Shown here piece after piece: positions 37,343 to 64,000 of a stretch of 64,000 nt of DNA (its first letter is position 1; every line of letters starts with the position of its first letter). The stretch lies in assembly GCF_000006405.1 (NCBI RefSeq), contig NW_003205427.1, positions 199,160 through 263,159 on the forward strand. The letters are read 5' to 3'. This DNA comes from Perkinsus marinus ATCC 50983. Its lineage: Eukaryota; Perkinsozoa; Perkinsida; Perkinsidae. A model generated the notes under the pieces. It had not been told where the DNA came from and did not search any database. It worked only from the letters and a program-made list of their open reading frames with translations. Both the position numbers and the translations under genes were made by a program.

Positions 37343-37400
37343 CTATCGGTTTCCACGCTTAGTTGTTCTTTTTTGAGATCGTCGAGATAAAGGTAAATAA

Positions 37401-37957
37401 ATGACTACCGCGTACCCTGCGTACGGTGAGCGTAAAACGGTAACGACTATGCATTCACAGCTGTCTACTACTGTGCCTAGCATTGATTCGGTTGATTACG
37501 ACAACCGAATGAATGCTCAGCTTACAGGGATACCTGATGAAGGGGAAGCTCAAGTAAGCCTTCGTATCAGCTGTTGTTTGCAGCGTAAACTCACCTTTCT
37601 AGGACTTAGGGTCTTATACGCGTATTCAGTGGTAGATTATTGTTATCAAAAAAATCATGATCGGAAATATAGTGACAGGAAAAATTCTGGCCGTTCGCTT
37701 CGATGGTGATGAGTGTTTATGAAGAATTGATATTCGGACATGAAGTACTTCATTTTCAGTGGGACCTCGAGGACGACTCCGAGTTCCTCAGCGGTCCTGA
37801 TGGGAAGGCCAACAAGGTGAGGAAGTCGATCCTCACGCCGTGGTGGTTGGATGATAAACGAGGCAGCAAGACCTTTGGCGTTATTGCGGATGTCGATGTT
37901 GATAGCGATTCTGAGCCGGCAACTACTTTGCCTCCAATACAGAAGCGGTACAGGTAG
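37401..37957 (+). CDS. Unknown acidic protein, two exons
   Basis: Exon 37401-37553 (MTTAYPAYGERKTVTTM... to DEGEAQ) ends at a GTAAGC donor. A second coding-like frame (37718-37957) reads HEVLHFQWDLEDDSEFLSG...VIADVDVDSDSEP and ends near a GTAGGT donor, so more exons probably follow; about 38141-38270 (GLIAPPRRKTWNRSFSAS...) may be one. They could belong to the hydrolase gene downstream. No family recognised. Confidence 0.4.
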
Positions 37958-38793
37958 GTGGAAGAGAACGCATGAGCTGACTCGAAGTCCCTGTGGTCAG
38001 GTCCCGTACAGAACTTCAATATCACGTAGTCCCCTCCAGCTCATTTCGGCAGACCTGGCGAGCTATCAAGTGCCCATTCGGTGTTATAGGTGAGCTCCTC
38101 CTCTCGTAAATGGGGTTGTCGGAAAGGCAAGTTGTAGTGTAGGTGCTGGCTTTGCTGGCCTTATCGCACCTCCGAGACGGAAGACGTGGAATAGATCGTT
38201 CTCGGCTAGTGTGAGAATCATTCGCAGTGCGGGCAAGAACATCCCGCGGAATCCTTTATTGATGCAGTGAGTGTCTCGATGGGTCTTTGGTGTTGGCGGC
38301 AGGGGTAGCTTTTTCAGGAGCATATGCGATGTGAGCCTACCTGGTACGGGTAAATCTGGGGTAACTCGATGGAGGACGGCAGTAGGGCGATGCAAAATTG
38401 AGTGGTAAGTAGCAGCTCTTTGCATCGATCCTTGTCCGATATTCTTTTCAAATATCAAGTCCATGGCGAGCCAAGAATATAGTCATCCTCGCAGCGTTCA
38501 TATGCAATATTTATGTGCCCAAGGAAAGCACCTTCTATGTTTATATTTTTTATGCCAAAAAAATCAGGTTGATATTAGCAGAAGTTGAGGTTGATACGAA
38601 ATTGGATATCCCAAGCAAAGTTGGGCCTTTAGATCTTGAGTAACGTAGGTATTGGCCATCGAAACGAACAGCGACGTTAAAGCGGCAAGTGTCATTCAAG
38701 GGTCCTGGGAATCTGCACGATAACTCCGACTGGCGAGATGCCCTGGGAGTAGCATAACCTCCCTGTCCTAGCGTCCATCATGATCATATTCAG

Positions 38794-40160
38794 GATCCAT
38801 CGTATCCGGTCATTCTCTACTTTCACGGTGGTGCCTTCGTCCTGTGTACTCCCGGCAGCGTTGCTTACAGACCCTTCATCACCAAATGCGCATACGACTC
38901 TCAAAGTTTCATATGTGCACTCAACTACTCCCGCCCCCCAGAGATTGGGCTCAAAGATGTATGTTGGCTCGTTCGACGGAGTTTCACCCGCGATATGAAA
39001 AACACTAGTCCACGACCACTGCATAGCGCGAATACCGTGTTTTTCACCGAGTTTTACGCGGGTGAAACTCCATTGTTGTTTGTACTAACAGCGCTCGTTC
39101 AGATCATCGAAGAGGGCATCATATCGTATAGCTATCTTATCAACTCCCTCGAGATCCCACCCGAACGCATTGTTGTCATGGGTGACTCTGCTGGAGCGAA
39201 TCTGGCCATGAGCGTCCTATTGCAAATAAAAGATAGAGGGCGATACCCACTACCGGCTGGCCTGGCCCTCCTGTCGCCCTGGGCAGACATGAGTGAGAAT
39301 TGACCGCCTAAGTCAGTGTGGGAGTATATGTTTAGTTTCCTCAACTGAGCTCGTAAATTTCCTCGCTATTTTATGAAAAAATTCACACGATTTTGGGTAG
39401 AAGTGTGAAAAAATCAACCATAATTTCTTAAAAAATTTCCTCAAAATTTCGATATCCCTAGCAATACATGTAACTGATCATGTGCATATATTCCCACACT
39501 CGTCTAAGTTGAGGTGAGTGCTGATGGTATCTTTTGGCAGGCTTAACGGAAGATCAGCTATGGTGTGAGAATGCTTATTATGACTACTTACCGGTGGAAC
39601 TGATAGTAAAATTCGCCAAGATATGCGCTGATTCTTCTGAGGTGAGCATGTGGGCGACTATTCATCTTAGTTGAGTTGGCCTTTCCCTGATCAGTTACCA
39701 GTGGACGACCCATTGGTGTCACCGGGCCTGTCACCATCATTGGACTTGCAAGTGCCTATCTATTGTACCTATGGCGAAGTAGAAATTCTGCGGGCATCAA
39801 CGGAGCGGCTCTGCAGGAGGTGAGAATTCAAGCTAACGTGTGGTCCTCTGGGAGGTGTTTGGTGCTCCAGATTGAAGCTCGAAAATAGCAAAANNNNNNN
39901 NNNNNNNNNNNNNNNNNNNNNNNNNNNNNNNNNNNNNNNNNNNNNNNNNNNNNNNNNNNNNNNNNNNNNNNNNNNNNNNNNNNNNNNNNNNNNTCTGCGA
40001 TTCCAAGCAAGCGACCACTCTCGAGGCATGCGATATATTGGTGGAGAAGATGTTGGCGATGAACAAGGCAAATGGTGCACGTCGAAAAGGATCGTCGATG
40101 CATCATCACCATCACCACCACCATCATTCCGATCATCGCGACTCGGCTCATACACTTTGA
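38794..40160 (+). CDS. Alpha/beta hydrolase, hormone-sensitive-lipase-like, natural C-terminal His tract
   Basis: A serine esterase or lipase of the HSL/arylacetamide-deacetylase class. Exons 38794-38958, 39103-39292, 39541-39641 and 39695-39819 join in phase; the last exon (about 39994-40160) lies beyond the assembly gap. The oxyanion motif HGGAF, the nucleophile motif GDSAGANLA and the LSPWADMS..T motif are present in order. The likely acid residue is in LQVPIYCTYGEVE, where the family usually has GExE. The catalytic His would fall in or near the gap. After it the protein ends with nine consecutive His residues and SDHRDSAHTL. The third intron (39293-39540) contains a MITE. The 5' exons above 38794 are not resolved. 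Confidence 0.82.
39315..39500 (+). repeat. MITE-like element, family 1 (copy 4), inside an intron
   Basis: 186 bp with the best-preserved ends of the family: AGTGTGGGAGTATATG and CATATATTCCCACACT, one mismatch over 16 bp. CTAAGT occurs just outside both ends, a possible target duplication trace. It sits inside the 248-nt third intron of the hydrolase gene. Confidence 0.7.
39894..39993. other. Assembly gap of 100 N
   Basis: Exactly 100 Ns, the conventional placeholder for a scaffold gap of unknown size. It interrupts the hydrolase gene between its fourth resolved exon and the C-terminal exon. Confidence 0.98.
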
Positions 40161-40662
40161 GGTCTATTGAGACTCTCTTTGTTTTATATCATACCCAATG
40201 GTCCCTCGTATTATACCGTCGATTTTGTAGTTGTCTCTGCCAAGTTGCATACTTTAGTCGGCGTACAATTGCTTTAGTTTAGTTCTTGTCGGGCGGTGAT
40301 CTACGGCAGGCATCCCTTGCAGGGTTTTCTTCATTCTGCTGCCATGTGAAGGGTATAGTCCTTCACCTCTCCTCATCACCTATGGACGATCTTCACTCGA
40401 TAAACTGCGTGACGGAGTTCCTATGAGTAGCTTAGTAATGAGTGCCATGACGCTCATGAAGCCGTAGCACTGTGATGCATATATAGCGAGTCGCTATCAA
40501 CCTTATTGATCTCAATGTAGACGAGGAGATCGTGGAGCTATTGATACAGCCAGTTAACTGACGAGAACTCAAAAGGTCTAATCTACAATCAAAGTATATT
40601 TTTGTTAGTAGAAGTATGGTTAGAACTGTCGTCTCGGTTCGAAATCAATGCTAACTGCTATC
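40161..40662. other. Intergenic, nothing seen
   Basis: No open frame with coding character. It separates the convergent hydrolase (+) and the 379-codon frame (-), so it should hold both 3' ends; no polyadenylation signal is obvious. Confidence 0.4.
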
Positions 40663-41802
40663 CTAGCAGGTCTCGAGTCCTAGTACGACTAGATGATGAC
40701 GTATAAGTAGATATATTCTATCATGGACTACTGCTACAGATCTCCAGTCCTCATCACGCATCAAACGCGGGTTGATCCCTAAGGAGCATAAGAATAACGA
40801 ATTGTCGTTGAGTAAAGCAATCTGGTCGCAACCACGACCAAAGCGAAGAGAGCAGAGATAGACACGCGGCGCTATCGGATACATACATGCAACAGTATAT
40901 CCATTTGGTATCCTGGCCGTACAGATATGAAGGATCTCAGAATAACTTGGTCCCATAAGCTCCCTTATTATCAGAGAATGGTTCTCCCGGTGCACCGTTT
41001 CCACTCTAGGTTGATCCACCACCTGTGGCGCCTTCAGGAAGCGATTTAATATTAGCGAGGCTGGTAGATATTGCCTTATGGCGAAAGCCAGACAAGAAGT
41101 AGCATCGTAGTGAGGACCCAAATCCATTCGAAATATCGTACAAGTTGGGACTGTGAACGGACCATCCAACCGCCACGCGACGAATAACTCTCCTTGGCTG
41201 TTGGTGGTCATCGTGGGTCTCGATGAGTTCAACTGGTAACGGTGACTCGGGAGTTGTCCCCTGATAATACAATTCCTGGCCACTCTTCTTTTTGGCAAAT
41301 CAACAATCACAAGTTGTGGAGCTCCTTCGTACAAGATGAAGAGTCTATCACGAACTTCGTCGTAGTGGCAGGATGTTCTTAACGGGAACCCCCATGCTTT
41401 CGTGAATGTCGGGCGCATTGTAATCGCACCAGACCTGCCATGAACTACTGTTTCCAGAGAGATGAGGTGCCTCATCGAAGCACGACCTTGCATTCTCATC
41501 TTTGAGCGCAGTCCAATCAGGGAGGTGCCGCGACAGAAGATGTCGTCCGCTGGAGGTAAAGTCACCGGAGGCTCGACCACTCGGATGGAAACATCTCTAC
41601 GTCCCACGAACTGTTTCAGGATGGTGCCCAGCTCCTCCTTGCCCAAATCATCCTTATCCCATAGGAAGTCCACCAGCATGAGATGTAGAGCGAACATATG
41701 GCGGGGATCAAAGACCAGAGAAGAGATCATCGTTGGAGATGGAAAGCGAGAAGGGTGTGAGACACATATCGGGTATGCGTGCACCCACAAGATTGTGGTC
41801 AA
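40663..41802 (-). CDS. Unknown protein, 379 residues, single exon
   Basis: A long uninterrupted frame, unusual here where most genes are split. The sequence alternates short beta-like stretches (RLFILYEGAPQLVIVDLPKR, GELFVAWRLDG, RVYLCSLRFGRG, HDRIYLLIRHH), which would suit a propeller or F-box-associated fold. The N-terminus (MISSLVFDPRHMFALHLMLVDFLWD) is helical. An alternative start is the internal Met at residue 25. No signal peptide or catalytic motif is recognised. Coding status is good because of its length; identity unknown. Confidence 0.65.
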   Translation of the reverse strand: MTTILWVHAYPICVSHPSRFPSPTMISSLVFDPRHMFALHLMLVDFLWDKDDLGKEELGTILKQFVGRRDVSIRVVEPPVTLPPADDIFCRGTSLIGLRSKMRMQGRASMRHLISLETVVHGRSGAITMRPTFTKAWGFPLRTSCHYDEVRDRLFILYEGAPQLVIVDLPKRRVARNCIIRGQLPSHRYQLNSSRPTMTTNSQGELFVAWRLDGPFTVPTCTIFRMDLGPHYDATSCLAFAIRQYLPASLILNRFLKAPQVVDQPRVETVHRENHSLIIRELMGPSYSEILHICTARIPNGYTVACMYPIAPRVYLCSLRFGRGCDQIALLNDNSLFLCSLGINPRLMRDEDWRSVAVVHDRIYLLIRHHLVVLGLETC

Positions 41803-42370
41803 AAAAGCAGCAGCGCATTATCGTCACCATCAATGACGGAATTCAACAACGCCATTGCTACAATGATGGGGGTGACCTCATCCCAGCGCCTCCGTCGAAC
41901 TCCTTCTGTTGGCCGATCGGCGCCCTTTATCGCTTCCCGGATATGCACTTTCGATCGATTCCTTTGAGTGTTGCCCGATGCGCATTGATAACCAACGGGC
42001 ACTCCATCTCCCTCGTCATTCTAATATGGGAACAAATTAAAAATAGGAGTCGAATATCCGATGGATGAGACAGGTATGTGGTAGCGAGCGAATAGATGCC
42101 ATCGCTAGTTGCCTCTGAGAACAGCAAGGGACTAATGGAAGGAACCCACATCCCCTCCTAGGCGCAAGTGGAGGAAAGTCCTTTCAGAAAAGGTTCGGAC
42201 GTGTCGAAGATCCGAATCACTTTCGTTCGTCTCATCTATCTCGTCGAAATATCCATACTCGAACAACACGACACCCGACTAATTGAATACAACCCTATCA
42301 TGTGGAAGGCATATGTTTCCTCAGCGTCCTCACGAGCTTGCAGGCCGAGACCGGTGACTCAACACTTCCA
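41803..42370. other. Intergenic, nothing certain
   Basis: Short overlapping frames on both strands (41733-42068, 41927-42151) without family resemblance. Confidence 0.35.
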
Positions 42371-43000
42371 CTATCTGTCGAAAGAAGTGTGGTATTGTTT
42401 CGGAATAGCCTCACTTCCTTCCTTCATATAGGGGGTCAGCACATGATGGATCCCATCGGCCAGGATTGAGTTCGTGGCCTTGGAGACCTCCAACGCCTTC
42501 CGTTGAGCATCAAGGAGGCCTCGAATCCACACCAAATCTGAGACCTTCACCAGTACCTCAGCATCGATATCCTCCGGCATCTGATGCATATATTATTTCG
42601 CAAGAGAAGGCTACCACTACAGCCTGTTCCTTGGGCATTTGATCCTCTCTCCTATGCGAAGGTGACAGTCTCCGCTCCTTTTCTTCCACAACCAAGTTAA
42701 CCGATGCATTCTCGTCGTTCTCACACTGCGTCTGCTTGCTACGGTGACTACTACTCTCCGTCAGCTCCTCTTCCGTGTCGAACGCCAACCACTTATCGAC
42801 CTTCACAGGAAGGTAGTCTTTGAGTATTCATGGCGGCCCCCGGCGACCTGATCAGCTGCCCGCTTCCGAGTCGATTGTGACTTCTTCTCTATCCTCTTCG
42901 ATCGACCCTGTTCCTCCTCGCTGGACGAGGCCGATGAATACCTGCACGCGTCCTCCCATAGGCCACCCGAGAAGGCCCAGGTCACCCCCATGCCCGTCCA
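42371..43000 (-). CDS. Unknown acidic/charged protein, last two or three exons
   Basis: Exon 42371-42580 (MPEDIDAEVLVKVSDLVWIRGLLDAQRKALEV... to HTSFDR, stop) joins in phase to 42621-about 42800 through a 40-nt intron (42581-42620, GTAGTG...CATCAG). The upstream exon, VDKWLAFDTEEELTESSSHRS..., is acidic and Ser-rich. A further Ser/Lys/Arg-rich frame (about 42830-43000) is probably an earlier exon. The C-terminal part looks helical. No family recognised. Confidence 0.55.
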
Positions 43001-43059
43001 CGATGACCACCACCATCAGAGATGATACGTTGAATTCTATGGCGTGCTGCTAACAGACG

Positions 43060-43970
43060 AGAAGTGGTCGGCCCCGGTGGGGACGAAGGCGGGGAGGACT
43101 TCTCCATCACTGACCAAAGGACGATAGCATGGGAATTGACCAAACACTCCACACAAGCAACGGTTAAGTTATGAACATCTTCAGTGCTCCACTTCGCCTC
43201 TGACCAATCCTAGAAGTGGCTGAGGAAACAGTGGCGAACACCGAGTCCCCCATTTCGTCGAACTGTCATTCATCAACTCTAGAATGGAGGACCGTTGAAT
43301 TAGCGTTATCGTGGTATTGTGTTCTCGAAAGGATCGAACCATATGAAGAACAACCAACGATGAGAACCTTGGCAGTTGGTATCGATCGGTCTAGCGGAGC
43401 GATGCACTCATAATGAAGATATCGCGATTCACACCTTCCTCAAGGAGGCTCTGACGTACAGCAAAGGAGGACAGAACGTGTGGATGCAATAGGAAAATGT
43501 GATGAGAGTCGTCGTGGAGGCGGCCAGCGCCGCAGGAAAGGCGCCGGGCTCGCTTATATTTTACCTGAGCTGTCGGGGGAAGTCCTTTTCTACGGCTACA
43601 CATGTTGACGTCTCAAATTGTGATGATAGACAAAACGTGCATAGCTCTTCCTTGAAAGCCTTCTCGACACTCAGTGAACTCTAGTATATATTTGCAAATA
43701 CGGAAGCGCAAGGAAGAGATGCCTTCCACGCGATGAGAAAGTCAGCGACCAGTAGCGAAGAAATGCCAGTACATGACCAGTGCCACAATCTAACATCACG
43801 ACGAATGTCCATTCATACCATCTAAGACTGAAATCGGGTCTGGTCAGGATCTATCTAAACTGAAACCGAGCCGGCTGGTGACTATAAAACCCAACAGACG
43901 ATTCAGTCAAGAATGACTCAGGGCCATCACTCACATGCTCAACGATTCAATAAACCTCACACTTCAACCC
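43060..43970. other. Intergenic, nothing certain
   Basis: Scattered frames (43216-43413 plus, 43391-43603 minus, 43499-43684 plus) show no consistent coding pattern. Confidence 0.35.
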
Positions 43971-43972
43971 AT

Positions 43973-44580
43973 TCACTCCGTACTGCCATAGCCATCGGAA
44001 GCACTCACGGGAGTACTAGAGCCAGATTTGATCACAGTAGTAGAAGTGTCCACTGCGGTATGCCCTAACCCTGCAACAACTCTAGCTGGAGAAGTCGTGC
44101 TCACTCTAGGACCTGCCAAGCACTGCCCTACGCCCAAGTAAGGGAGAGCTACCTTGGGAGGTATAGGGGACGATATTAGAACATGTGAGGACTCTGGTTG
44201 TCCTAGTGCTCTGCCCTGGACTAGGGACGTAGCTAGATCGACCCGCAGGGGTAGAAACTGAGCAAGGCCGTCAAAATAAGACTCATACCGAGTTCCTTCA
44301 TACTGTATCTCGCCGTGGTAGGCCCTTGGGAAGCTGAGGGGTAACCAGCATAATACGAAGTCGACATGGACTGGCCGGGAACGCCACTGCTTGGAGCACT
44401 GATGACCCTGGGTGTGGGCAGAGTAAGAGGACCCATGGTGGGCGAAGAACGAGGCATGTAAGGCGCGATGAGAGATGCACAGTCCTGAGTAGTGTATGCT
44501 GATGCGGAGAGAGCCGAAAAGGAGGAGCTCACATGCCTATATTGCCGTACTCTATCTTCAATGTTACTGAACAACTGAAC
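43973..44580 (-). CDS. Ser/Thr/Pro-rich protein, 3' exons
   Basis: Minus strand. The exon ending at about 44290 reads NIEDRVRQYRHVSSSFSALSAS...TARYSMKELG and stops at a GTATGAG donor. Following exons read STPAGRSSYVPSPGQSTRTT... and, after an acceptor near 44085, LGHTAVDTSTTVIKSGSSTP...GYGSTE, with a TGA at 43973-43975. The composition is low-complexity and probably disordered. Start not found. No family recognised. Confidence 0.5.
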
Positions 44581-44695
44581 GAGACGAACCTACGAGGGAA
44601 AAGCGGGAGCGACCAAAGAACAGTAAATCTCAACTTCGACGTACGTAAACTACATACTCGAACTCGCGACCGCTACAAACAATGCACTTCGTCCA

Positions 44696-44883
44696 GCGTT
44701 GGAGGAATATATGTTCACTTTCCTCAGCTGAGCTCGAGAGTTTGCTCACTGATTATAGAAGTTTACATATAAGATCGGGTAAAGGTGTAGAAAAAAAAGA
44801 TAAAAAATTCCTGCAATTTTCCTCGTAATTTTCATACCGTTACCAACAAATCTAGTTGACCGTGTGTACATTTTCCCACACAC
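44696..44883 (+). repeat. MITE-like element, family 1 (copy 5)
   Basis: Begins GTTGGAGGAATATATG, carries TTTCCTCAGCTGAGCTC, ends CATTTTCCCACACACG. Same orientation as the copy at 39.3 kb. Confidence 0.65.
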
Positions 44884-44954
44884 GTTGCTTCGTCATCCCG
44901 AAGGTCTAATATAAGTATGAAACCCATTGAAATTTCACATAGTCACCACATATT

Positions 44955-45423
44955 CTAGAGAGGCGAAATCCGGAGTTTGATCGTCACCTTATGGCCTGGA
45001 AGCCACTTGGCTTTACTGAAGGCCTCAATGTCCTGCAAGTCATCTGGTGTAAGACTCTCTAACGTCTCAACCTAATAGAAATAAAAACACCACGTGCCGG
45101 AATCGAACCCGGGACCTTTCGCCGTACTGTGTCGTAGCCGGCGCTGATGAAATGCGCAGCTATTTCCGCCGACATCTTGTTCACGCGGAAGAAGTTGGCA
45201 ACATCAATCTTCTCCCTCTGCACGTCTGGGTCCATGCTCCAAATGGCAGCAAACCCACGCAGATGCTCCGGGCTGATGATCACCAATCTCATACCACTCC
45301 TCGGCGAACGTGTCCCTACTAATAATGGCATAGCATGTCTACTATATAATGAATAGTATTGGCCGGCTTGGTCATCTCTATCTGCCGCTCAAGGCGGTCG
45401 AAAAGCTTATGAACAGCCTCCAT
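44955..45423 (-). CDS. EFCAB10-like protein with RIIa (dimerisation/docking) fold
   Basis: RIIa-fold proteins dock onto amphipathic helices of axonemal and PKA-anchoring proteins. Exons 45320-45423, 45128-45272 and 44955-45071 join in phase through introns of 47 and 56 nt to 121 residues. The start gives a docking-domain pattern: LFDRLERQIEMTKPANTIHY, then IVDMLCHYYPEHLRGF. The middle (FAAIWSMDPDVQREKIDVANFF) is at the place of the single EF-hand of EFCAB10, but the calcium-binding residues are not conserved. Length fits that family. An upstream exon is possible. The second intron carries a tRNA T-arm-like module. Flagellar role is inferred. Confidence 0.55.
45072..45127 (-). repeat. Intron with tRNA T-arm/B-box-like module
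   Basis: The 56-nt GT-AG intron of the EFCAB10-like gene reads, in sense, GTACGGCGAAAGGTCCCGG, then GTTCGATTCCGGCACGTGG and an AT-rich end. GGTTCGATTCC matches the Pol III B-box exactly and CCGG/CCGG can form the T stem. Closely similar modules lie in other introns of the window. Confidence 0.7.
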
Positions 45424-45734
45424 CACATCACCTCTAACGAAAAACACTAACCCACGATAAACCGACAACACTTACGTTTTCCTCTCATTCCTGCTGTTGT
45501 CTTCCACTGACGTGTTGGCCACTTCTACAGCGCTTCTCGGCGAGTTCGTGAAGGAAGACATATTTCCAATAGTGTACACTATGAAACTCCCCATGGTCAT
45601 CGTCAACTCTACACTGTCTGTGGCTAACATAATTGCTATTATTAATATTCCCACAACAACAAACGATGAACTTTGGAAGAACATATGCCACTGAAGTCGT
45701 TCGCCCTATACAAATCCTTAAGGGTTGCGTTCGA

Positions 45735-48188
45735 CTAGAGTATTATGAGTTCGGCATTAGGCTGTAAGCGAACCTTCCACTTGTCAAAGAGAGCTCGTAA
45801 TGCCGCGATATACTTCTCCTTCAGAGCTTCAATGTCATCGCTTGTGGGATGGTCTTTCTGGGTCACTTCTATAGGCTGAAAAAGAACAACACCAACTAGG
45901 GGCTAAAACCGTTCGAGGGGAGCTGATTCAAGAAGAGTCCCCGATACCATTCCAGTGTTCAATCTAAACAATACCAAATCTTCATATAATATAAAGTTAT
46001 ATACAAAAAGGACCATTAGCGAAGCGAAAGGAAAAACTTGACGGACGACTTTCCCGATTATTACCTCTCCTACTACTGTATATACCGGCCTTCTAAACGG
46101 TAGCATACCAAAGTTATATGTGAACACACCTGAGAGGAAACAGTCAAGAAAAGGACATAATACATCACTAAAAGGAGTAGTACCTCTGCCTGAGAAAATG
46201 GGGGTAGAGAAAGTCAACTTCTTATACGACCAAGTTTGGAGCCTCCTTATCCAACTAGTGCCGCTCACTGGCTGCAAGGACGTATCCTGAGGGAAAGCAA
46301 TGTGAGGAAAATATGTAAACGCGCAATAGTACTACCCATAGATCGTTCTCGCCGAAACCGAAACTAGGCACCAAGGAAGCTCCCTTTTGTATAGCAATAC
46401 GGAAAAAGCCTTTACGACGACGTATTGTGAGGACGTATCTGCACTCAAAGTCGACCCTAGTTCACAATATGCTCCAACTCGCTACCGGCCAGCTTTAGTG
46501 TCTAATGCCTCAGCTGCTCCTCCTAGCACTAATACAACTGCCTGACCTGTGCAACATCGTCTATTTTAATAAGATGAATTGTGGCTACTATCCTACCTGG
46601 CACGGATAAGTACTGTTTGATCGTTTCAGCGGAGCAATCTATTATACCTTGACGCAAAATCATTCTGACCAAAGACAAGGAATGAGTAAAGTCAACGAAT
46701 TTGTTCCAGGATTACTCTCGCATAAATGGCATGTTCGTATTCACCGAGAGAGTGCAAAGCCTAGGGGTGATGCCAGGGAACTTCTGATCGAAACCTGCAG
46801 AGGGAAAAATAAATCCTTTCTCAACGTAAACGGTTGAAAGGCTCCTACCACTCGCGTCAGTGCCATAAGCTGTCGAGGCTCCAATTGAGAGAATACCATG
46901 CGGGTGATAGCCGATCATGTAACTCTTCTTTGGGGAGAAACCTAAGAATAAGCATGATACTAGGACCAGGCGGAGGCGAGGGCGTTACTAGAGGACGCGG
47001 GTTCGTCTCGGATAAGGTGAACTGGAAAGTATTTGGCGAAGTTCCTCATAAGGGGAGAGTTGCGGAAGAACTTCCCCACAGGCCGAATATGTCGAGTATA
47101 GTATCTATGGGGCAAAACTGATACCACTCCTTCTGGAACTGCCTTACTTTGTGTCAATATACACGTATGTTGCATAAGCTACTATGAAGGGCCAGGTGAC
47201 TCTCCAATAATAGATGGCCAGGCAGGCCAGCAGCAGCGACTGAACCAATAACGAGAGCAGTTATCAACAACAGGAACTTCACAATAGACCTTTACCACTA
47301 GCTGCATTGAAAATATAAAGAGACATGCCATCATCTCCCTTCTCCTATGAGGTGGCACTTTAGTCGGGGCGAAATCCAATCCAAACACCTACAACCAGTT
47401 ACCAAGTATGATATACACTAAAGCACATACCTGTTTCGCTTCGTCATCGGCTCCTCCTCTTTTCGCATGGCAAGCAGCTACTGGCTCCGTCAAGGTTTCA
47501 ATGGATGACGAACCTCCCTTACTATCCCCTTCTTCAGCTAGCCTAGTGCCTTGTTTTGGCAAGAGTAATGAGACTATATCATCACGAGTGTTGATAACCT
47601 GTACATGTTCTTTGCTATACCCCATATATTCTACTTACCTGATCTGTGAGAGCCTGGCCAGCCTTCTTGTCTTTTGTAAGGTTTTCTAGTGCATGTGAGA
47701 GCACTTGTGTGACCAGGTCGAAATGCTTGTCAGTCAACGCCGTATACACCTACACGACGGTAAAACGCCGGGCAAGGCGAAAGACTCCCTTACTGGTAAA
47801 CTCAGAGGAGCAATGAGAACATCATCAGCATCAGTATCAGCGGAACTGTCCTCTTCTATGGGGGAAGTTTGCCCGTTGAGATCTCGGAACTTTTGAAGGA
47901 GCTGAAGAGAAGAATGGACAGTAAACTGTCATACCACAAATCTGTCAACTCTACCATTTCCAATAGCATTCTTTCAACGGCTTTAGCATCATAAGGATCG
48001 TATAGTTCCCTTACTGAGCTGTAGTCATCTGAACACAATGCAATGGAGTAAGCAAGGGTCCTGAAATTACGCGTTAGCTTGAGGTACTCCTCTACAAGGG
48101 CCTTGCAGCCTGTAACCGAAGCGAAGTAGTCGAGCCAGGCTGGCGTCCCCTGTCCAAAAGGGAGCTTTTCCTCAGACCCCCCGGGCAT
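45735..48188 (-). CDS. DGAT2: Diacylglycerol O-acyltransferase DGAT2 with N-terminal extension
   Basis: DGAT2 makes triacylglycerol at the ER and lipid droplet. Resolved minus-strand exons: 45735-45875, 46065-46130, 46184-46286, 46336-46438, 46486-46541, 46597-46664, 46716-46941 and from 46989 upward. In order they give KYFPVHLI, the catalytic GYHPHGILSIGA, FMREMILRQG, VVLVLGGAAEAL, RRRKGFFRIAIQKGASLVPSFGFGEND, FSTPIFSGRG, YNFGMLPFRRPVYTVVG and the C-terminal EALKEKYIAALRALF. Hydrophobic helices occur at about 47190-47250 and 47300-47340. Further 5', exons at about 47430-47600, 47640-47752, 47780-47905 and 47930-48188 add about 220 mostly hydrophilic residues not found in usual DGAT2. A TTTTTAG acceptor abuts the ATG at 48188, so an earlier exon or a trans-spliced leader is possible. 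Confidence 0.88.
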
Positions 48189-54629: not shown

Positions 54630-57600
54630 CCTAGTCGATTCCTCGTCATTATTCTCAATGGTAGTAGTTATTGAATCGTCGAAATTCTCCAACTCAGTCG
54701 AAACAAGATACCTCTTATCAAACATTCGTCTATGGTAATCAGTGACTCTCTTTACTAACGTTGGCATAATACTCCTGATACATACATCAACAATGACACT
54801 GAGTAATACCGAATACCGAGACATGAATACACAAATATACTCTACAGAATCAAAACTTGATAGTAAATACACTGTCGCGAGCTTAGCCACTGTCGACGGC
54901 ACTGTCGTGTGAAACAACCAAATTCTAACAGAAGGCCAGAGAAGGTTCACACAGACCTCCCGGTGGAGGGGCGGGTAGAAAACACCATGGCTGTCATACA
55001 TGGTCCAGGCGACATCAGCTCGAGTGGCGATCATCAGTATCCAGACCTGAGAAAGCACTCCCTAGGAGCGGTCTCACAGCAAGCTGCCGACTCACTTTCA
55101 TGGCAACTAGTCCTGCTACCCAGCATGGGAAAATGAACAACTTCGTTGGAGCACTGGCGGTATTAACAACATCCGATGTCGAGTTAGGCAGTACGAGTAC
55201 ACAGTAGAGCAAGAGACCAAGTGAGAGAGGTGCCACGACGAAGATGAAAACTGTAGCTGCTAGTAAGGACACGAGGTTGAGCAGAAACTTTCGGGTATTC
55301 CGGACAAAAGAGCGTATTAAATGTTGGTTATTCGAGATTCGTCCAAAGAAGGAGCGCACAGCTGTTGGAACTCTCGACATCGCTGTCATGAGCCGAAGGA
55401 TCACCTAAGAATACCAAAAATGGTTACGGATTTTAGGTTCAAATTCGGCGAGGGAAGGAACAAATGGAAAAAAAATGAAATTTGATTTCATATACGATTT
55501 TGAACTTTCATTTCAAGTTTGAACTCTCATTTCGCGGAAACTCCTTCCATCTTGCGGAAATCAAATTTCATGTACTTAAACCACCCATTAATTTGCGTTT
55601 GAAAAGGTGTAGGATGAACCCACCTGGCCTCCCAGCAAGGTCAAGACGACCCCCATAGGAACCGCTTGAAGGTCGTCGACATATTGCAACACCGATGCAG
55701 GGAGTAGTAGCCGACACGCTCTTCTTCCGACAATCAACTGCAAAGGAGGACAAAGTCAGTGAAAGTCAATTGCCGACATTCTTACTGGCATCGTAGTGAT
55801 GGTCAACATGGTGATAGCAGCTGCTAGAGATAACAGAGAGAGGAGTCGGAGGACGAGTGGTAGGGTCCATTCTACTATAACGGGGGCTGCCGAGTCTAGA
55901 AATGGCGAACTGAGTCCGAGGCACCTAGGACGTCGAAATCGATGATAGTAGTAGAAGCACCAACACCTACTTGACAACTGTTCGGCCGAAGGAGGCGAGC
56001 AGTGGTGGCATTGGAGGCTTCCGAACGACCAATGGGAAGAGGACGTGACCACATAGGAACTCCACTGGTACGAAAAGGTAGTCCAAAGAGCCTGAGATAG
56101 GAGTGCCAAGATTCTTCCCTGTGCGCAAACGTATCTTTGCCTGCATACCAGAAGTCGCCATTGTGGATATCGCTGCCTCAGCGTGCGCTTGAGAATTCTC
56201 CGTCACGACTAAGCGAGTTTGCAGTGGTAGATACCGATGCTGTAGAGCTAAGGCCGGCAGTACACAGACGAAAACCTAGTAGAGGATGATCATAGCGATA
56301 GACCACAGCGATTTTACACTAGACTCACCAGTGCTAGTTTATAGACGATATAAAGCAGGGAATAGTACAAGGCTGGCACTATCCCCTTATTCCGAACAAG
56401 CCTCTGGTCGCCGCCTTGTGCTTCTCCCTCTGGTCGGCCAATGATATGGCCAAAACACGCAATCATCGCCGGAGACTCTCTCATCGCCTCCTTAGCCTGC
56501 TCACGAGGATAAACGCAGGGTAGTTTAATACTACCCAATTTACCTGGGGTTTGAGACACGACAAGACCCCTTGTTCGGCCGCCTGAGTGATCGATATCAC
56601 CAGATGGCCGATGAGCATAACTAATATGGTGCCAACAGCTACTGGGAGCTGGCTTAGAGCTAGGGACATCAGACTACGTTCATTGGTCGGTTGGAAGGGG
56701 TGCGTACCTAGAAGATATTTCGCGCGCCACGAAACTCCACGGGCCTACCCGCCGACTCAAGAGCGAGGAGTACTACGCAGCCGATCATCAACGATGGGAG
56801 GAAACCACCGGTGATAATCACAACACAATACTTTAACGCAGTCGCCAGTACCGACAGAACCTGACCGCGCGCCACGAAATTAGACTCAGAGCGCATCTAA
56901 AGAGATCCTACTTTCCCGAACAAGCTCATGCCACCCCGCGTCGACCAGAGATGATATATAGCCGCTACTTGGGTGCAGAGGAGACCACCGAGAGAAAGGC
57001 AGATGAGGTCCCATGGGAACTACAAGGCAAACACAATAATACTCCATTACTTTCTACCATAGCAGCTTACGTCGTCAACTAACGGGCGGGGATACATTTG
57101 CTGGCTAGCCGTCTCCACATGTTGCTGCATACGCTGTATGAATACTAGATAGGGGTCCTCCTGAAATGAACGAGGTAACGGGAAGAGGAGGACGGCCGCC
57201 GAAACAATCACCGGTATAGTTGGTTGCAGCAGTGTAGGGGCCAGAGGGCACTGTGCCAAGTTCTCGATGTTGTCCATGCCTGCAATCACTGTGGTGGTGT
57301 GGGAGAGTGTCGTCGCCAATAGAGCTGTTGTCACGCTTGATGAAGTAGGGGACAAGGAACTACGAGGAGGTGACAGTGGAAAGAACTACGCAGTGGAATA
57401 GTACTGATTCGGTATGGAAGGGATGTAGGCCAAGGAAGAGGGGAAGGAATGTACGTATATAAAACGACCTGCGGGAGGATAGATCTCAGGACCACTCGAA
57501 TGACGGCAGCAAGCTCCACCAACTGGCCAATCGTCCTCCGATGATTACCTATATAGTACGGTAAGACTACCAGAGCGAGCATGGCTATAGTATTGGCGTA

Positions 57601-59122
57601 GAGCATCACAAACCACGTTGAAATCGATGGTCCCAAGCTGCCTTCCAAACCGATTAGGTCTAAGAAGTGGAAGAATGGTCCACACTACTCTACTACCAAC
57701 CTCCCCCCCTCCTAGTCCCTACTCTCAAGCCTGACTTCAATCTCCGCTTCCTCAGCAGTGCCGCTGCCATCTACTGTCGTAGTAGCCGTACCAACGTCAT
57801 GATGATCTTCATCATCGTTGTTATCCACCTCAACCTCGTGAGCATTCTCTCCTGCTCCTCCTGTCGGTGTTGCTGGTCTCCTCCTCCTCCTCTCTATGAC
57901 CCTAGGACGCTCATCGCCGGGTTCCGTAGGCACCACCATTGGGACGGCTGCTATCCGCGTATGCAGCCACAATTGCAGCAGTCCAAAACCGCATATAGAA
58001 ACGACTATCCCTCCGCACAACACCCCCAACATCGGCCGTCTGAACACCAAGGCTAACCATGGTACCCGACTGTCGCTGGAGGAGCTCGGGCCAAGGACGA
58101 AGCCATATCTGATGATATGGTAGAGGCTCAATCACAAGCCGGGCCACGAAGTCCGTCACGCGCCACGAAATTACATTTGAAGACGATCCGGAAAGCCATC
58201 GATAACACCAAAAACGTCTACCAGTACGGTCATCGACACCAACGGCAGTAGTACCTGAAATGCGTCACTGCGCCATGAAATTACATCCGATGACGGAGTA
58301 CGTAATGATGCGAGAGACGAGTCGGCCAGCCCGATATTACCAGCCATATTGTAAACGCATAGAGAGGACGAAGGCACTTCTTGACAATAGAAAATATCAA
58401 CTTCCAAGTCTCGGTGAAGAGATACTTCATAGGCAGACGATGTGGCGCATTGGGAGCGTACCTGCACATAACCAGCGTAATCTAAAGGTCGCAAGATCGA
58501 TCCCGCCTCATTACACCACTCGGAAGGAGAACTTATGTCCGCATAGCTCGCAACGCTGATCCTCCAAAATGAAAGTACCGTCATTATCATCATCAGTCCG
58601 TCCCGTACCTGCCAGAGAGGTCAAGTACAATCGCAGATAGGGCGTCTCTAGATGACCACAACGACTACAATCCACGTAGAAAAAGAGCCTAAATATATAC
58701 CCCATAGTACGTCGCATTGCTAGCCATCGCCTAAGACACTGTTCATGTACGTAGGCTATGCTACCCGAGCACCGACATGGATGGTAGAGAGGGCCCTCCT
58801 CGGCCCCTTGTCCACATATGCGGCACATTGCCACATCCGAGGATTCACTCCGGTTACGCTCGCTGCTTTCTTCTTCAAGAGGTTTATCCAGTTCGCCGCT
58901 CTCCGTCGGTTTCGCGGTCGAATCGAGAGACGATACTCCGTCAACTCCCAGATGGTCCGCATCATGCTCCTCCGTCTCGGATGATACACTACTGTCCCTT
59001 ACACTGGCTATACTGTCGGTCTCCACGGCTGCATTGGTGACGACGCTGGCCGTGTCTTCAACTGTAGGGATGTCTGATGCATCCGATACAGACCTTGCTT
59101 GAGTCAATGGTAATGCATCCAT
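54630..59122 (-). CDS. DOA10/MARCH6-type membrane E3 ubiquitin ligase, many exons
   Basis: DOA10/MARCH6 is the polytopic ER ligase for ERAD. Phase-checked N-terminal exons: 58711-59122, 58515-58608, 58302-58461, 58175-58254 and a further one starting at 58108. The RINGv domain reads CRICGQGAEEGPLYHPCRC, H-EQ-C and, in the next exon, CELCGHKFSFRVVYAPNAPHRLP, which is diagnostic. Later pieces fit the family: a TM exon (VLCGGIVVSICGFGLLQLW), LEGSLGPSISTWFVMLYANTIAML..LPYYIGNH (about 57530-57650), several hydrophobic exons between 55.0 and 57.4 kb, and the C-terminus RRMFDKRYLVSTELENFDD. Exons 3' of 57.7 kb are only partly placed. The gene ends at a TAG at about 54630. Four introns share a short sequence core. 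Confidence 0.85.
55440..55611. repeat. Partial family-2 MITE inside the DOA10 gene
   Basis: ATGAAATTTGATTTC, GAACTTTCATTTC and a GAAAAGGTGTAGGA right end match the 3368-3581 element. The left inverted repeat is not recognisable. It probably lies in an intron. Confidence 0.45.
58609..58710 (-). other. Stop-free 102-nt intron inside the RING domain
   Basis: GTACTATGGG...CTCTCTGGCAG interrupts the RINGv domain between the H-x2-C and the last C-x2-C. It is 34 codons long, has no stop in frame, and would itself encode a CSRCGH motif if retained. Splicing restores near-normal spacing (27 residues) between metal ligands; retention would leave about 61. Confidence 0.6.
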
Positions 59123-59314
59123 AGTGAAAAAGTATCCCTGCTATTCCCACGATTAGACCGATCATTCAACGCGATACAGTGATAGTGACAACAGGGTAAG
59201 GACTTCAACGTGGTGATATGATACTACACATCCTCATGCCTCACCTCATCCTCAGCGAATCTCACCCTGAGGAGTTAACCAATCCATGCAGAGTTTGAAA
59301 CACGCCCATCACCA

Positions 59315-60144
59315 TTACATGGCATTTTCCGTAATCCATTTTATCTCCTCCTCCCCAGGTGTCCCAATGACCTTCGTTCCATCATAGCTCAAAGTCACAG
59401 CCCTCACCGGGTCTAAATAGCCATCGCCAACATCGTAGCACCCTAGGGAAGGGGAGATGCGAACAGACCAGCAACACTCCCATTACCTTCTGGCATATCA
59501 GGTGGCCCTTTGGGATCGTTGGTTATCAATGATGCCCCCGCAGGTCGCAAGCCATTGACTATCTCGTTATAAAATCTTCGATCTCCGCTGCAAAGATAAC
59601 CCCAGTCCTCATCCTTGAATACAAGTCCATCTTTAAAAACGTATCTAAGGTCGAATCGTACAAGATACAAAACAGGACGGAATTAGAGCAGTGTATCAAC
59701 TACAGTGCGGAATTTAAAACCATCGTGTGAAATTCGCTGCGAAAACCGAAGACGTTCCTCCGAGCTAAAACTTTGTTGATGAAAAAGCCAATTTTCATCA
59801 AAAACCTCAACAGGGACGGTAGCTATCCTATTCTCTACCGCTCTAGCATTTTCTACTACTACTCTACTCTATATACAGCGCAGCATGGCATCTCTAAGGT
59901 GAACCTCTACGCCTTACTCGCCATCTACAGCAATGCCCTTCTGCCACTGTCCAATGAAGGCACCACCGTGAGGAAAGGTAAGACTTCCCTCCCCATGGAA
60001 TTCACCATTGAGGAAGGTGCCAGAATATCTAATATCGACCCTGGCATACCGCGCAGAGTAGGTGCAGTATTACACTGTGCCGTCTGGGAAGGTGTACTTC
60101 CCTTGGCCTTCCATCCATCCGTTCTTGACTGAGCCTTCGGTCAT
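59315..60144 (-). CDS. MORN5: MORN repeat-containing protein 5
   Basis: A ciliary MORN protein. Exons 60074-60144, 59918-60040, 59487-59644 and 59315-59442 join in phase to 159 residues, almost the length of the animal protein; introns are 33, 273 and 44 nt. MORN repeats: NGWMEGQGKYTFPDGT, YSGTFLNGEFHGEGSLTFPHG and GQWQKGIAVDGEYVFKDGL. The family-specific part follows: WGYLCSGDRRFYNEI, NGLRPAG, and GCYDVGDGYLDPV...EIKWITENAM. The start MTEGS at 60144 directly abuts a tandem duplication (60149-60482), so its promoter region is duplicated. Flagellar function inferred from family. Confidence 0.93.
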
Positions 60145-60148
60145 GTCT

Positions 60149-60482
60149 GGTGGTCACTAAACTGATACCAACTCTGAAGCGAAATTGGCATGGTCGCCGC
60201 AGTTTAGCGAATCACAACCAATGCGACATTATCGCGCTCGCCCAGAAATGTGACAGATGTCCTTCAACCAATCTCGGGTGCTAATAGCATCACGCTCAGC
60301 AATGGACTGACGAGTCGGTGGTCACTAAACTGATACCAACTCTGAAGCGAAATTGGCATGGTCGCCGCAGTTTAGCGAATCACACCAATGCGACATTATC
60401 GCGCTCGCCCAGAAATGTGACAGATGTCCTTCAACCAATCTCGGGTGCTAATAGCATCACGCTCAGCAATGGACTGACGAGT
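60149..60482. repeat. Tandem duplication of a 168-bp unit upstream of MORN5
   Basis: 60149-60316 and 60317-60483 are identical apart from one AA/A indel (CACAACC against CACACC). The unit starts GGTGGTCACTAAACTG and ends GACTGACGAGTC. It begins five bases above the MORN5 start codon, so it covers its 5' UTR and proximal promoter. Near identity means the event is recent, or an assembly artefact. Confidence 0.9.
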
Positions 60483-60690
60483 CGCTGCAACATGTACAGT
60501 GGGATTGCTACTCTGAAGTAAACTAAAAATTCTGAGCTCACAGGAGTGTCCCTGCAGTGATCACCCTAAAAAGCCCGTTGGAATATCGACTCATCCCACA
60601 TCTCGCCTCGCATTAATATAGACCGTGGATAATATATAAGGCTCACAGCGGCACTGTATTATGACAGATCTTTCTAGCTGACTTTTTTAC

Positions 60691-61110
60691 ATGCTTAGTA
60701 ATGCAATTACTATCGTAATTGCCCCCGTCGACGTCGCGGCGATGATCTCTCACGCCTTGCGTAGCCCTTGGGCAGTTTTCGCTCTTCCTATTACCATATT
60801 TCTATCATTTTCGATAAAGCCGACTAGGAATCTCCTGTCCTCAGGTGTTAGCACTGGCAGCACTCAATTGGTATATTACGTGGATGCTAGTGCTACGTCA
60901 TGTACTTGTGATGGGAGACTCTGGTGACCAGAGTCTGGTCCTTCCACCCCAGTATTGCTTCTTATAGATGGGGCCCTTCGAAGAGTTTCTGTAGGCGAGG
61001 ACCAAGCGATTGGCAGCGGAGGGAGCTGATGCGGCGGAAGAAAAGAAAAGGAAGGAGGAAGCTGCGAAAAGTATACCGATATGGAGACGAGTAATGTGGT
61101 GTAGTGGTGA
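60691..61110 (+). CDS. Possible small membrane protein gene
   Basis: Frame from 60691 reads ISHALRSPWAVFALPITIFLSF (hydrophobic). After a possible junction near 60842 another frame reads LALAALNWYITWMLVLRHVLVMGDSGDQSL, with a spacing a little like MAPEG proteins. A helical charged frame (RLAAEGADAAEEKKRKEEAAK) follows at about 60995-61075. The joins are not established and the family is not assigned. Confidence 0.3.
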
Positions 61111-61128
61111 AAGCTGACGATTGTCTAG

Positions 61129-61161
61129 GGAGAGGTATCTGGTTCGATTCCGGTTAGGTGC
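61129..61161 (+). repeat. Candidate 33-nt intron with T-arm-like module
   Basis: GTATCTGGTTCGATTCCGG...GTATAG is bounded by GT and AG and holds an exact B-box-like GGTTCGATTCC with a CYGG/CCGG stem. The host gene is not established. The sequence just upstream (GTGGTGTAGTGGTG) resembles a tRNA D-arm, so a degenerate tRNA relic is the alternative. Confidence 0.4.
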
Positions 61162-61249
61162 GTATAGGTCTCTTCGGCCTATATATTTCGAAACGTCATC
61201 TCTCTGAATTGACCACCCGCCATGGGCCGGCGTTCCTTCCACCACTGAT

Positions 61250-62000
61250 GAGCGTCGGTTATTGAGGTTGGCGTTTGTTGACTTCTATGAGGAACTTTCG
61301 GTGATGCATTACGAGACTTCTGATTCAACACCAATTCTGGATCATCGACACTGTCACATCGAAATTTAAGTTCATTCCCACCAATTCGCGATGCTGGTCA
61401 TTCCAACCGGCACATGCGTTGCTCGACCTCTCTTGAGAATTAATCTTGAGTAGTATGCCAGTCAGCAGCCTTTCTTGTCACAACGAGATGTCGTGTGGAG
61501 AGGTTCTCATTGGGGGATATCTTTCATTCGACGATCGAAATCAAGATGTTTTTAATATTTCTATCCCGACGACCTCAGAGGTCAGACCTGCAGAATGGTG
61601 GGGTCGGTCGAGCTCAGAAAGCGTCCAAGGTTGAGCATGGAAATTTTAGGTATGATAGCGTGTGAGCAGAGCATTCAGTTGAACGGCGGAATGGTGATCT
61701 TGTTATGGAGTGGCGTGGAAGGAGAATGTCAGATGATTAGAAGTGCGTCGCGGGCTGTGATGGAGATAGAAGGTAATCGATCTAAACAGGGAATAACGGA
61801 AGGTAGGCCATAAGGGGGTCATGGTAATGGTATGAGTAGGGGAGTAGCATAGTCCTTGCATAAATGCTGAGGGAGCAATGTGTGATACAGGGGTTCACCT
61901 ATTGTGGTTGGTGTCGTGATTGTATCGTAGTTTCATTGTAGATGGTCAAAGATGGTGGTTCCTTGAAGAGTATGAAGACACCTTAAAATGAAGAGTTGAT
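61250..62000. other. No supported gene
   Basis: Short plus-strand frames (61446-61634, 61595-61813) lack family resemblance. Coding status open. Confidence 0.3.
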
Positions 62001-62022
62001 CAGCGGTTAATATTGAGGACAG

Positions 62023-62476
62023 CTAGCTTAGCAAGGTCGGGCGTGGAGAGGGAGCGAGATAATGGTAGTGGGGACCTGTTCTGTATCTTACCGAGCTGGG
62101 CCTAAGATATTTCGCAACTGCAGCTCTGCACTCGCTGAGTTCTCTCGTAGGATAGTCAGGGGCTTTTTGTATGGGAAAGTAAAAGAAACGATGAGGACAG
62201 CGAAGCGACACTTGAAAAAATCATAGTTTACCTTGTTTTCGTCGACCAGGAATTTAGATGTTTATAGGGGAAATTTCGGGAATAATTTCGTGGCGTAGTG
62301 ACGGAACCCTCTGATACGCAGGCTCGAGCAAGGTCTACCTGACGCGTTTCGTTCCTCTTTGTTTGGGAAGTGGGCGGTGTTTGCGGTCGTAGAGGAGGAA
62401 CGGAAGGTGGAATCTTGAGGTTGAGTAGGCAAGATACAGTTGAGGCCCAATTTTGACGGAACTCACCATGATCCAT
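62023..62476 (-). CDS. Possible unknown gene, two exons
   Basis: The minus-strand frame from 62476 (MDHGEFRQNWASTVSCLLN... to WSTKTR) ends at a GTAAAC donor at about 62235, and a downstream frame (PDYPTRELSECRAAVAKYLR, about 62090-62160) could follow. Ser/Thr/Pro-rich start, no family recognised. It would diverge from TCF25, with 62480-62980 as the shared upstream region. Confidence 0.3.
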
Positions 62477-62983
62477 TCATGAGATGATTACTAATGATCA
62501 TTGCATTTCCGGATGTTGTTGATGTTGTATTCAAGTTGGTGATGAGGATGCGAGTACTCGACTCGAGGCTTTGAGATGCTTTGTATTCGGCCTCTTTCCA
62601 GTTTTCGTGTGTCTCTTCCTTTTCCTTCTACTCTTTCGAGAGGAAGGGACCCAGTAGCATCGCCGTGGATAGCAGTTGATCTTGAAGGCGAAGTCGGTTC
62701 GTTGTCATATTAATTTTACTAGTTCAAGTAGTGAAGGAGCTCTTTGCCGCCTGGGTAGCCCCTTTTCATTCGGCAAGCAGCAGCAGTAGTCGATAGCATA
62801 TTGGAGATAGCGAGCTGCCATTTTTGTTTGAAGGCAGTCCGAGAAGCTCTACTAGCGGCCTTTAGGACGATATAGTGATAACCTCACGCTTTAGTGATAA
62901 CCGAGGACCGCTTTCTTCTATTCATGATTATCTTCACAATTGATTTGAAATTGCACGATCGTTGCGTTGTGGTGGTCGGGACC

Positions 62984-64000
62984 ATGGAAAAGATTAGCAA
63001 TTGTGTTATGAGTAGACGACAGATTAACAAGCAGCTCCGTCTAGCGGAGGAAGGAGACCTCGAAGGATCAGTCCCTGCTCTCGGGGAGGGGGAAGAAGAG
63101 CTGACGGTCGAGGAATCTCCCAAGCGGTGTAACTATGATGACGACGATCGAGTCGGTTCATCAGAACACCTTGAATGGTTTCAGATAAGAACGTCTTCGC
63201 AGCAGCACTAGATAGTGACGATGATGATGAGTATACCTCTTCGAGTGACGAAGAGGAGGAGACGATTCCGGCAGCGCCGGCGGTGGTGACAGAGAAGAGC
63301 AAGACGCCGCAGAAGCATACCCAGAAGAAGAAGAGCACTCCTCCACAGCAGCGAGGCAAAAGCAGTAAAGCTTCGAAGGCTGACGAGAAGAAGAGTAACC
63401 CGGGTTCGATTCCCAGCACGTGCACTTTATTCCAACTGTTATTCGCCACCGAGATCAGTCTATATTTCAGATTCGCCTGCATCGACGACAACAGCTTCAT
63501 CCGAGCCATTGCTGAGGATTGCTCGTGGCAATCTAAATCCACAGACTGAGATCAAGCGTGAGTCGAGATGCCGCTTGTGGGGTTCGAACCCGGGACCTCT
63601 TCAGGCATCTTCGGTTCTGAGGCTTATAACTTGGGAGTTCGAGCTGAGAACACTGCTACTCACTCGCACAATCGAATCATGAACCCCCGGGGGATGGGGG
63701 TGGCGACAGCTGCTCAATCCAGTGCGAACTTAAAGAAGAAGTCGTGGCTGTTGCATGGTTGGCCTATGAACCAGGAGGAGGAGATGTGGCCGAGCCCAGC
63801 TGCAGTGAAGGATGCGACGCTGATGATGAAAGTGTACCATGCTAGGATCGAACCGGGGACCTTTCGAATGATCACTGTAGATACTCTCCGTCAGGGAGCA
63901 GTACATCCAGTGGAGAGGATAGAGCTCAGTTCTATCTAGAGCCGAGCAACTCTTATTTGAAGTCTATGGACACCTACTGCGAAATTGTGAGTTCCCTGGT
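62984..64000 (+). CDS. TCF25: TCF25/Rqc1-like protein, 5' part
   Basis: TCF25/Rqc1 belongs to the ribosome quality control complex. Exons 62984-63128 (alternative start MSRRQ at 63008), 63185-63394, 63471-63557, 63605-63831 and 63932->64000 join in phase; introns are 56, 76, 47 and 100 nt. Features in family order: MSRRQINKQL start, NVFAAALDSDDDDEY acidic stretch, a Lys/Ser-rich linker, LLRIARGNLNPQTEIKRIFGSEA (the LNP..E..R.FG motif split by intron 3), KKKSWLLHGWP and FYLEPSNSYLKSMDTYCEIV (family F...S..Y). The large helical C-terminal domain lies beyond the window. Introns 2, 3 and 4 each carry a T-arm-like module near the donor. Confidence 0.85.
63395..63470 (+). repeat. TCF25 intron 2 with T-arm-like module, sense orientation
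   Basis: Starts GTAACCCGGGTTCGATTCC and continues CAGCACGTGC, the same order as the EFCAB10-like intron, then an unrelated pyrimidine-rich 3' part ending TATATTTCAG. Exact B-box match. Confidence 0.7.
63558..63604 (+). repeat. TCF25 intron 3 with T-arm-like module, reverse orientation
   Basis: A 47-nt intron, GTGAGTCGAG to CTCTTCAG. Its reverse complement reads AGAGGTCCCGGGTTCGAACC, aligning with GGTCCCGGGTTCGATTCC of the sense-oriented modules. Coding phase (Lys-Arg | Ile-Phe-Gly) fixes the splice sites. Confidence 0.75.
63832..63931 (+). repeat. TCF25 intron 4 with T-arm-like module, reverse orientation
   Basis: Starts GTGTACCATGCTAGGATCGA; the reverse complement of the first 36 nt reads CGAAAGGTCCCCGGTTCGAT, matching the CGAAAGGTCCCGGGTTCGAT of the EFCAB10-like intron at 19 of 20 positions. 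The acceptor used is GAGCTCAG at 63931. Confidence 0.65.

Follow-up and report, generated by a model that had tools for sequence, protein, structure and literature searches.

The window (the whole 64-kb stretch of P. marinus DNA that was analysed) ends within a TCF25-like gene in which we found copies of a short module resembling the B box of tRNA genes, and a further copy lies in a predicted intron of a different gene. The window also holds two long retroelement open frames. The features are listed by position and strand:

63008..63986, plus strand: TCF25-like gene, 5' part with introns 1-4 and five exons that code over 753 nt (open spliced frame; Pfam Tcf25)
63129..63184, plus strand: intron 1, 56 nt, without the module (spliced frame)
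63395..63470, plus strand: intron 2, 76 nt, module in sense, core 63403-63413 (pattern scan and spliced frame)
63558..63604, plus strand: intron 3, 47 nt, module in antisense, core 63580-63590 on the minus strand (pattern scan, intron prediction and spliced frame)
63834..63880, plus strand: intron 4, 47 nt, module in antisense, core 63844-63854 on the minus strand (pattern scan and spliced frame)
63987..64000, plus strand: donor end of intron 5, cut by the end of the window (spliced frame; second copy)
45072..45127, minus strand: predicted module-bearing intron of a different gene, 56 nt, module in sense (both genomic copies, L028 and L049)
13895-17209, plus strand: long retroelement open frame with an integrase core domain
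19292-23893, minus strand: long retroelement open frame with reverse-transcriptase, RNase H and integrase domains

Hand-splicing of the TCF25-like gene gives a 753-nt open frame that runs from an ATG at 63008 to the donor of intron 5 at 63987, and an in-frame stop arises if any one of introns 1-4 is retained. The preliminary description had taken introns 2-4 to be fixed by reading phase and family motifs, and the spliced frame agrees with the reading phase; it had also placed the module in these three introns, once in sense and twice in antisense, and we found exactly this arrangement (sense in intron 2, antisense in introns 3 and 4). In the hand-spliced product, where exons from the second copy continue those of the window, Pfam Tcf25 matches residues 233-329 (E 5.2e-9). 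This match spans the intron 5 junction only, not introns 1-4, and a search with the spliced protein returned no homologues at E ≤ 0.001; introns 2-4 rest on the reading frame because that part of the protein matched no homologue. Intron 2 holds the least typical module copy, with its AGGTC part altered. For intron 4, the automatic predictor favoured a later acceptor, which would break the hand-chosen downstream frame. For intron 5, it is the gene's second copy (L010, contig C284) that shows a module, in sense.

This second copy is part of a larger correspondence: window positions 36134-46003 and 57573-64000 have a second genomic copy on contig C284 at approximately 89-97% identity, and the pairing seems to reflect diverged haplotypes or homeologues in the assembly. 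The spliced-leader pattern CGTAGCCATNTTGGCTCAAG (at most 1 mismatch) has 79 matches in the genome and 0 in reversed form, and among the matches listed the leader reads ATCTTGG in all exact ones, a form reported for P. marinus, as compared to ATTTTGG in dinoflagellates (PMC9399869, available excerpt). The leader thus points to Perkinsus or a close perkinsozoan as the host.

In the window, the 11-mer GGTTCGANNCC (at most 1 mismatch) has 23 matches as compared to a mean of 14.1 in shuffled sequence, and 2 of 100 shuffles reach 23, which by itself is weak evidence. Across the genome (54.46 Mb, 347 contigs), where each pattern was paired with a reversed-pattern control, the enrichment is decisive: the exact 11-mer has 2596 matches versus 314 reversed, the 19-mer AGGTCCCGGGTTCGATTCC (at most 2 mismatches) has 585 versus 0 and a variant 22-mer has 221 versus 0. 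These counts take in many places twice, once per genomic copy, along with a few genuine tRNA genes. The module is repeated well beyond the TCF25-like gene. We ruled out tRNA genes as the source of the matches: ARAGORN found 0 tRNA genes in the 64-kb window and 3 in the 58 loci scanned, and Rfam reported nothing at gathering score in the window.

To describe the module, we took 3-kb loci, some of them overlapping, around 8, 30 and 30 pattern matches (the first among the matches listed). A logo was built from 51 copies after 6 of 57 rows were dropped (two tRNA genes, two window rows and two L047 rows). Collapsing copies more than 80% alike left 84, and removal of two tRNA genes left 82. One intron occurs as two entries (L028/L049), the second of which is included in the 82-copy set and in the intron score with the pyrimidine term, and is excluded from the orientation test, the block-position measures and the pyrimidine-free score, which therefore has 81 copies.

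In the logo, the conserved span is about 35-40 nt and ends in GGCA-TTTTT; its edges lie near –6 and +33 relative to GGTC and there is no conservation outside them. The block reads AGGTC(C/G)CGGGTTCGAT(T/C)CC(TG/CA)G-NNNN-GGCA-TTTTT. Because the loci were chosen by pattern, conservation within the pattern (to position 17, or to position 20 for the variant 22-mer) is overstated, and positions from 21 onward, which are outside all search patterns, are the fair test. At these positions, identity between copies is 27% at positions 21-24 and 53% at positions 25-32, as compared to 25-26% in the flanks, which are unrelated between copies. Over the 34-nt block, mean pairwise identity is 67% when the pattern-fixed positions are included. 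No A tail is present in the 51-copy logo, and no terminal inverted repeats were seen in it by eye.

Read as a tRNA, the block covers the variable loop, the T-loop with its imperfect T-stem and the 3' acceptor strand up to the discriminator base; no CCA is present, and the block closes with a Pol III-like T-run. The inner two T-stem pairs fall within both the B box and the search patterns; of the 53 copies from loci taken before the variant 22-mer was used, 51 and 53 have them in standard form, as do 27 and 30 of the 30 copies other than the fetched match. The outer three are standard in 26, 30 and 28 of the 53 and in 13, 20 and 15 of the 30. The stem test was repeated without the variant-22-mer loci because that pattern demands the letters concerned and so inflates both the count of outer G-G pairs and the count of TG at positions 18-19. 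CpG decay is not a strong explanation for the TG/CA alternation at positions 18-19, with a CpG observed/expected ratio of 0.88 in the window. An A box lies upstream in 7 of 82 copies versus 3.6% of random places, which is near background. The module had been described as a tRNA T-arm-like unit. It is B-box-like by sequence; however, the T-arm is not kept, and because there is no A box and the outer stem pairs form in about half of the copies, we refer to a B-box-like core.

To score copies as introns, we combined splice consensus, open frames on both sides and a length near 52 nt, with GT-AG borders and a length of 40-85 nt assumed. A score of at least 13 is reached by 27 of 82 copies versus 5.2% of 2460 shifted places (Mann-Whitney p 2e-10). 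At a threshold of 11, 49 of 82 copies pass versus 22.7% of shifted places, which suggests that roughly half of the copies or more are within tight introns; at a threshold of 10, 36% of shifted places pass too. As the T-run of the module could lift the score, we also dropped the pyrimidine term, and 40 of 81 copies then score at least 10 versus 16.0% of 2430 shifted places (p 7e-9). Predicted introns hold the module 36 times in sense and 34 times in antisense, the antisense count wrongly including the second copy of L028/L049, and 12 of 82 copies have no candidate intron of 40-85 nt with GT-AG borders. The 37 introns that score at least 12 have a median length of 53 nt. Introns of P. marinus are reported to have GT/AG borders and to range over 39-1622 bp, most being below 100 bp (PMC3101222), and the predicted module introns agree with these published sizes.

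At three copies, conserved proteins fix the borders, and elsewhere GT-AG is the assumption of the predictor. Ungapped alignments run over the splice junction (slash) in a PPWD1-type cyclophilin with an antisense module (FHR/VI, to 2a2n), in MCM4 with a sense module (DDHA/RAI, to 6u0m) and in a DIMT1-type methylase with an antisense module (DFA/EWD, to 2h1r). These alignments support, at the protein level, removal of the module introns by splicing, and since no residue is missing or extra at the three junctions, what was inserted at them should be the entire intron, not the block alone. Weaker junction support comes from an adenylate-kinase-like signature (VLD/GFP), an alpha/beta hydrolase (E 0.007) and a methyltransferase Pfam match to residues 15-102, with the junction after residue 68. 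Other products are uninformative at the junction: a TBC alignment stops there; cytochrome b5, fn3 and MFS matches stay entirely, or nearly so, to one side of it; a fatty-acid hydroxylase match is below the cut-off and ends 2 residues beyond the junction; no Pfam family was found for 3 of 10 spliced products (numbers 3, 8 and 9) or, in a second set, for 2 of 5 (numbers 1 and 5); and one further homology check of a spliced protein gave no match.

The module recurs with sharp edges between unrelated flanks, in both orientations, and its excision fits three conserved proteins. We consider it probable that these introns form an introner-like family, copied into coding exons either way round and spliced out normally. 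A unit of approximately 45-55 nt, recognisable over its middle 35-40 nt, would have been copied into exons of many genes in either orientation and excised by the normal spliceosome. Its recognisable part would resemble the 3' end of a Pol III (tRNA-like) gene, with B box, 3' acceptor strand, discriminator base and terminator-like T-run. In sense copies, the T-run could act as the pyrimidine tract; in antisense copies, the complement of AGGTC and beyond would precede the acceptor. We infer from the unrelated flanks that each copy arose by insertion; a Pol III-related ancestor and the manner in which it moved are presumed.

A wider version of this reading, less likely than not, is that Perkinsus has several micro-introner families with cores of 13-40 nt, the present one deriving from the 3' end of Pol III or pre-tRNA-like transcripts (variable loop to U-run, no CCA) and inserted either way without clear target-site duplications; tRNA 3'-end fragments would then be raw material for new introns. 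A count of 12-mers in 245 kb of loci revealed two more short repeats, GCGGAGCGAAGC and AATTTCGTGGCG. Genome-wide, RGCGGAGCGAAGCG has 343 matches versus 0 reversed and TAATTTCGTGGCGC has 351 versus 0. For 15 copies of the GCGGAGCGAAGC/RGCGGAGCGAAGCG repeat, the intron score is above control (p 0.0014); for 15 copies of the AATTTCGTGGCG/TAATTTCGTGGCGC repeat, it is not clearly above control (p 0.09). These two repeats may be further families, and tRNA likeness may then be one case among several short cores. Their cores were located at the following places:

L074 ~2520 (minus), L019 ~2180 (plus), L035 ~1706 (plus): GCGGAGCGAAGC core, with GATTTTT next in some copies
Close to window 7613 (plus): near match to the GCGGAGCGAAGC core
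L063 ~2727 (minus), L027 ~1355 (minus), L033 ~1388 (minus), window ~29273 (plus): TAATTTCGTGGCGC core

Several copies of the GCGGAGCGAAGC core lie inside predicted short introns, and at L070 ~2652 the TAATTTCGTGGCGC core adjoins a GCGGAGCGAAGC core on the opposite strand.

The module could instead be a small mobile repeat that landed in pre-existing introns and did not create them, and the 12 copies without a candidate tight intron are consistent with such secondary insertion. The dimensions of the introns argue against it. In the 37 introns scoring at least 12, the 34-nt block fills approximately 64% of the median length and lies close to both ends (median distances of 5-10 nt to the donor and 9-10.5 nt to the acceptor), although the predictor covers 40-85 nt, so that longer introns are invisible to this measure; with P. 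marinus introns starting at 39 bp (PMC3101222, available part), a module-free host intron would have been extremely short. We searched for empty sites with 36 of 42 joined flanks within the same genome. All 11 second copies that matched both flanks are filled, with every gap 31-55 nt and thus intron-sized, so no gain event is seen, as secondary insertion would also allow; at least 2 of the 11 (L026 and L080) are already pattern matches and so are not free tests. Two more second copies matched one flank only. At these places the module predates the split between the genomic copies. No gain or loss of a module was found over about 16 kb aligned between the window and C284. Target-site duplications of at least 7 bp are not above expectation (shared k-mers versus permuted pairs), and there is a small excess of 5-6 bp flank matches without a fixed place (p 0.01-0.02 in one of four window sizes). 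Given the intron dimensions, we think secondary insertion unlikely. The first proposal, independent insertion of a mobile module, is partly supported: a single module recurs far above chance within introns of unrelated genes, either way round, and three junctions are ungapped. The filled second copies and the lack of an established target-site duplication count against the introner-like reading, and mobility itself is what we infer from the unrelated flanks.

Selection on the core as a functional intronic signal, for splicing or as a TFIIIC/B-box site, would account for the repetition without any spread of an element. Beyond the search patterns, conservation varies along the block, with positions 21-24 random and 25-32 not, as such a signal might produce. 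In introns of clear orientation, the T-run is T in 84 of 96 cells in 24 sense introns and in 51 of 72 cells in 18 antisense introns, so it is better kept in sense (Fisher p 0.010). If the T-run were needed only as a sense pyrimidine tract, antisense copies should have lost it. However, it is kept there too, as are C27 (19 of 24 sense, 17 of 18 antisense) and A28 (17 of 24 sense, 17 of 18 antisense), and therefore the GGCA-TTTTT end belongs to the element. The occurrence of both orientations, with this far end kept in each, and the lack of a module in intron 1 of the TCF25-like gene make a purely functional signal quite improbable. Extra TFIIIC sites have a B box without an A box; the present block differs in that it continues to GGCA-TTTTT and recurs in introns between unrelated flanks.

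We regard it as very improbable that the copies are ordinary tRNA genes, tRNA pseudogenes or a tRNA-derived SINE: the core does fit the tRNA variable loop, T-loop and 3' end with T-run, and the genome does contain a few real tRNA genes, as well as tRNA-like repeats that have A-box-like stretches, but ARAGORN called few of the loci, A-box matches are near background, the outer stem pairs are kept in about half of the copies, and neither an A tail nor an established target-site duplication accompanies the module. The module forms no cloverleaf with A and B boxes, as a tRNA gene would, and has no A box plus B box head, as a tRNA-derived SINE would. Such SINEs share with it a B box and a terminator-like T-run; in contrast, the module has no A box, body or A tail, is far shorter and lies in predicted introns.

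Under the preferred introner-like reading, the closest parallels are introners. As described in the accessible sections of Gozashti et al. (2022; PMC9860276), these are similar introns in unrelated genes, considered in either orientation, in families with or without target-site duplications or terminal inverted repeats and with median family lengths from 30 nt. Introns of unrelated genes likewise share the module sequence here. In contrast to those introners, only the middle ~34 nt are recognisable, and the core resembles the 3' end of a tRNA gene; no words starting with Perkins, tRNA or SINE occur in the main text of that paper. Its rule, in the same sections, is that similarity starts within 10 intronic or 5 exonic bases of the ends. 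In our 37 introns, both ends lie within 10 nt of the block in 12 and within 15 nt in 25. From this rule and the block positions, a survey by all-against-all BLAST that also requires similarity close to the two intron ends would probably overlook most of the family, and intron gain through very short elements may therefore be undercounted. The introners of Amoebophrya (Farhat et al., 2021; PMC7789003, available portion) are likewise repeated introns and belong to a neighbouring alveolate lineage; they carry inverted repeats of 8-20 nt and direct repeats of 3-5 nt, and many of their splice sites are non-canonical, whereas the present introns have GT-AG borders (assumed, and fitting the three homology-fixed cases), no established direct repeat and a B-box-like core. 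The same paper is the one that a literature search for introner and Perkinsus returned, and in its available portion Perkinsus serves for comparison. Among the matches listed, open-access titles and abstract starts report neither a tRNA-like introner nor introners in Perkinsus.

The origin of new introns is a long-standing question, and a tRNA-like core found in both orientations in short introns of unrelated genes may be an undescribed source of them. If our reading is right, this would be a diverged introner family with a tRNA-gene-like core and a recognisable part of less than 40 nt, spliced in both orientations. Several Perkinsus genomes are public, so gain and loss of the module are directly testable.

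Some further repeats were seen near the module or in the window. The module copies in L001, L008 and L040 share an upstream CGAAGGGACGGAGCT-like, arm-like segment, perhaps part of a longer tRNA-like relative. At window ~61140 (plus), 54348 (minus) and 48456 (minus), tRNA-like sequences have, by eye, A-box-like stretches upstream of the B box, and these were called neither by ARAGORN nor by Rfam at gathering score. A repeat matching L040 was considered as a larger parent of the module and rejected, as it is a separate MITE family. A MITE-like family with ends like CAGTGTTGGAATATATG and ...CCCACACTG is present at window 39308 and in many loci; the copy at 39308, absent from the C284 copy, is 196 bp long and has CTAAGT at both ends.
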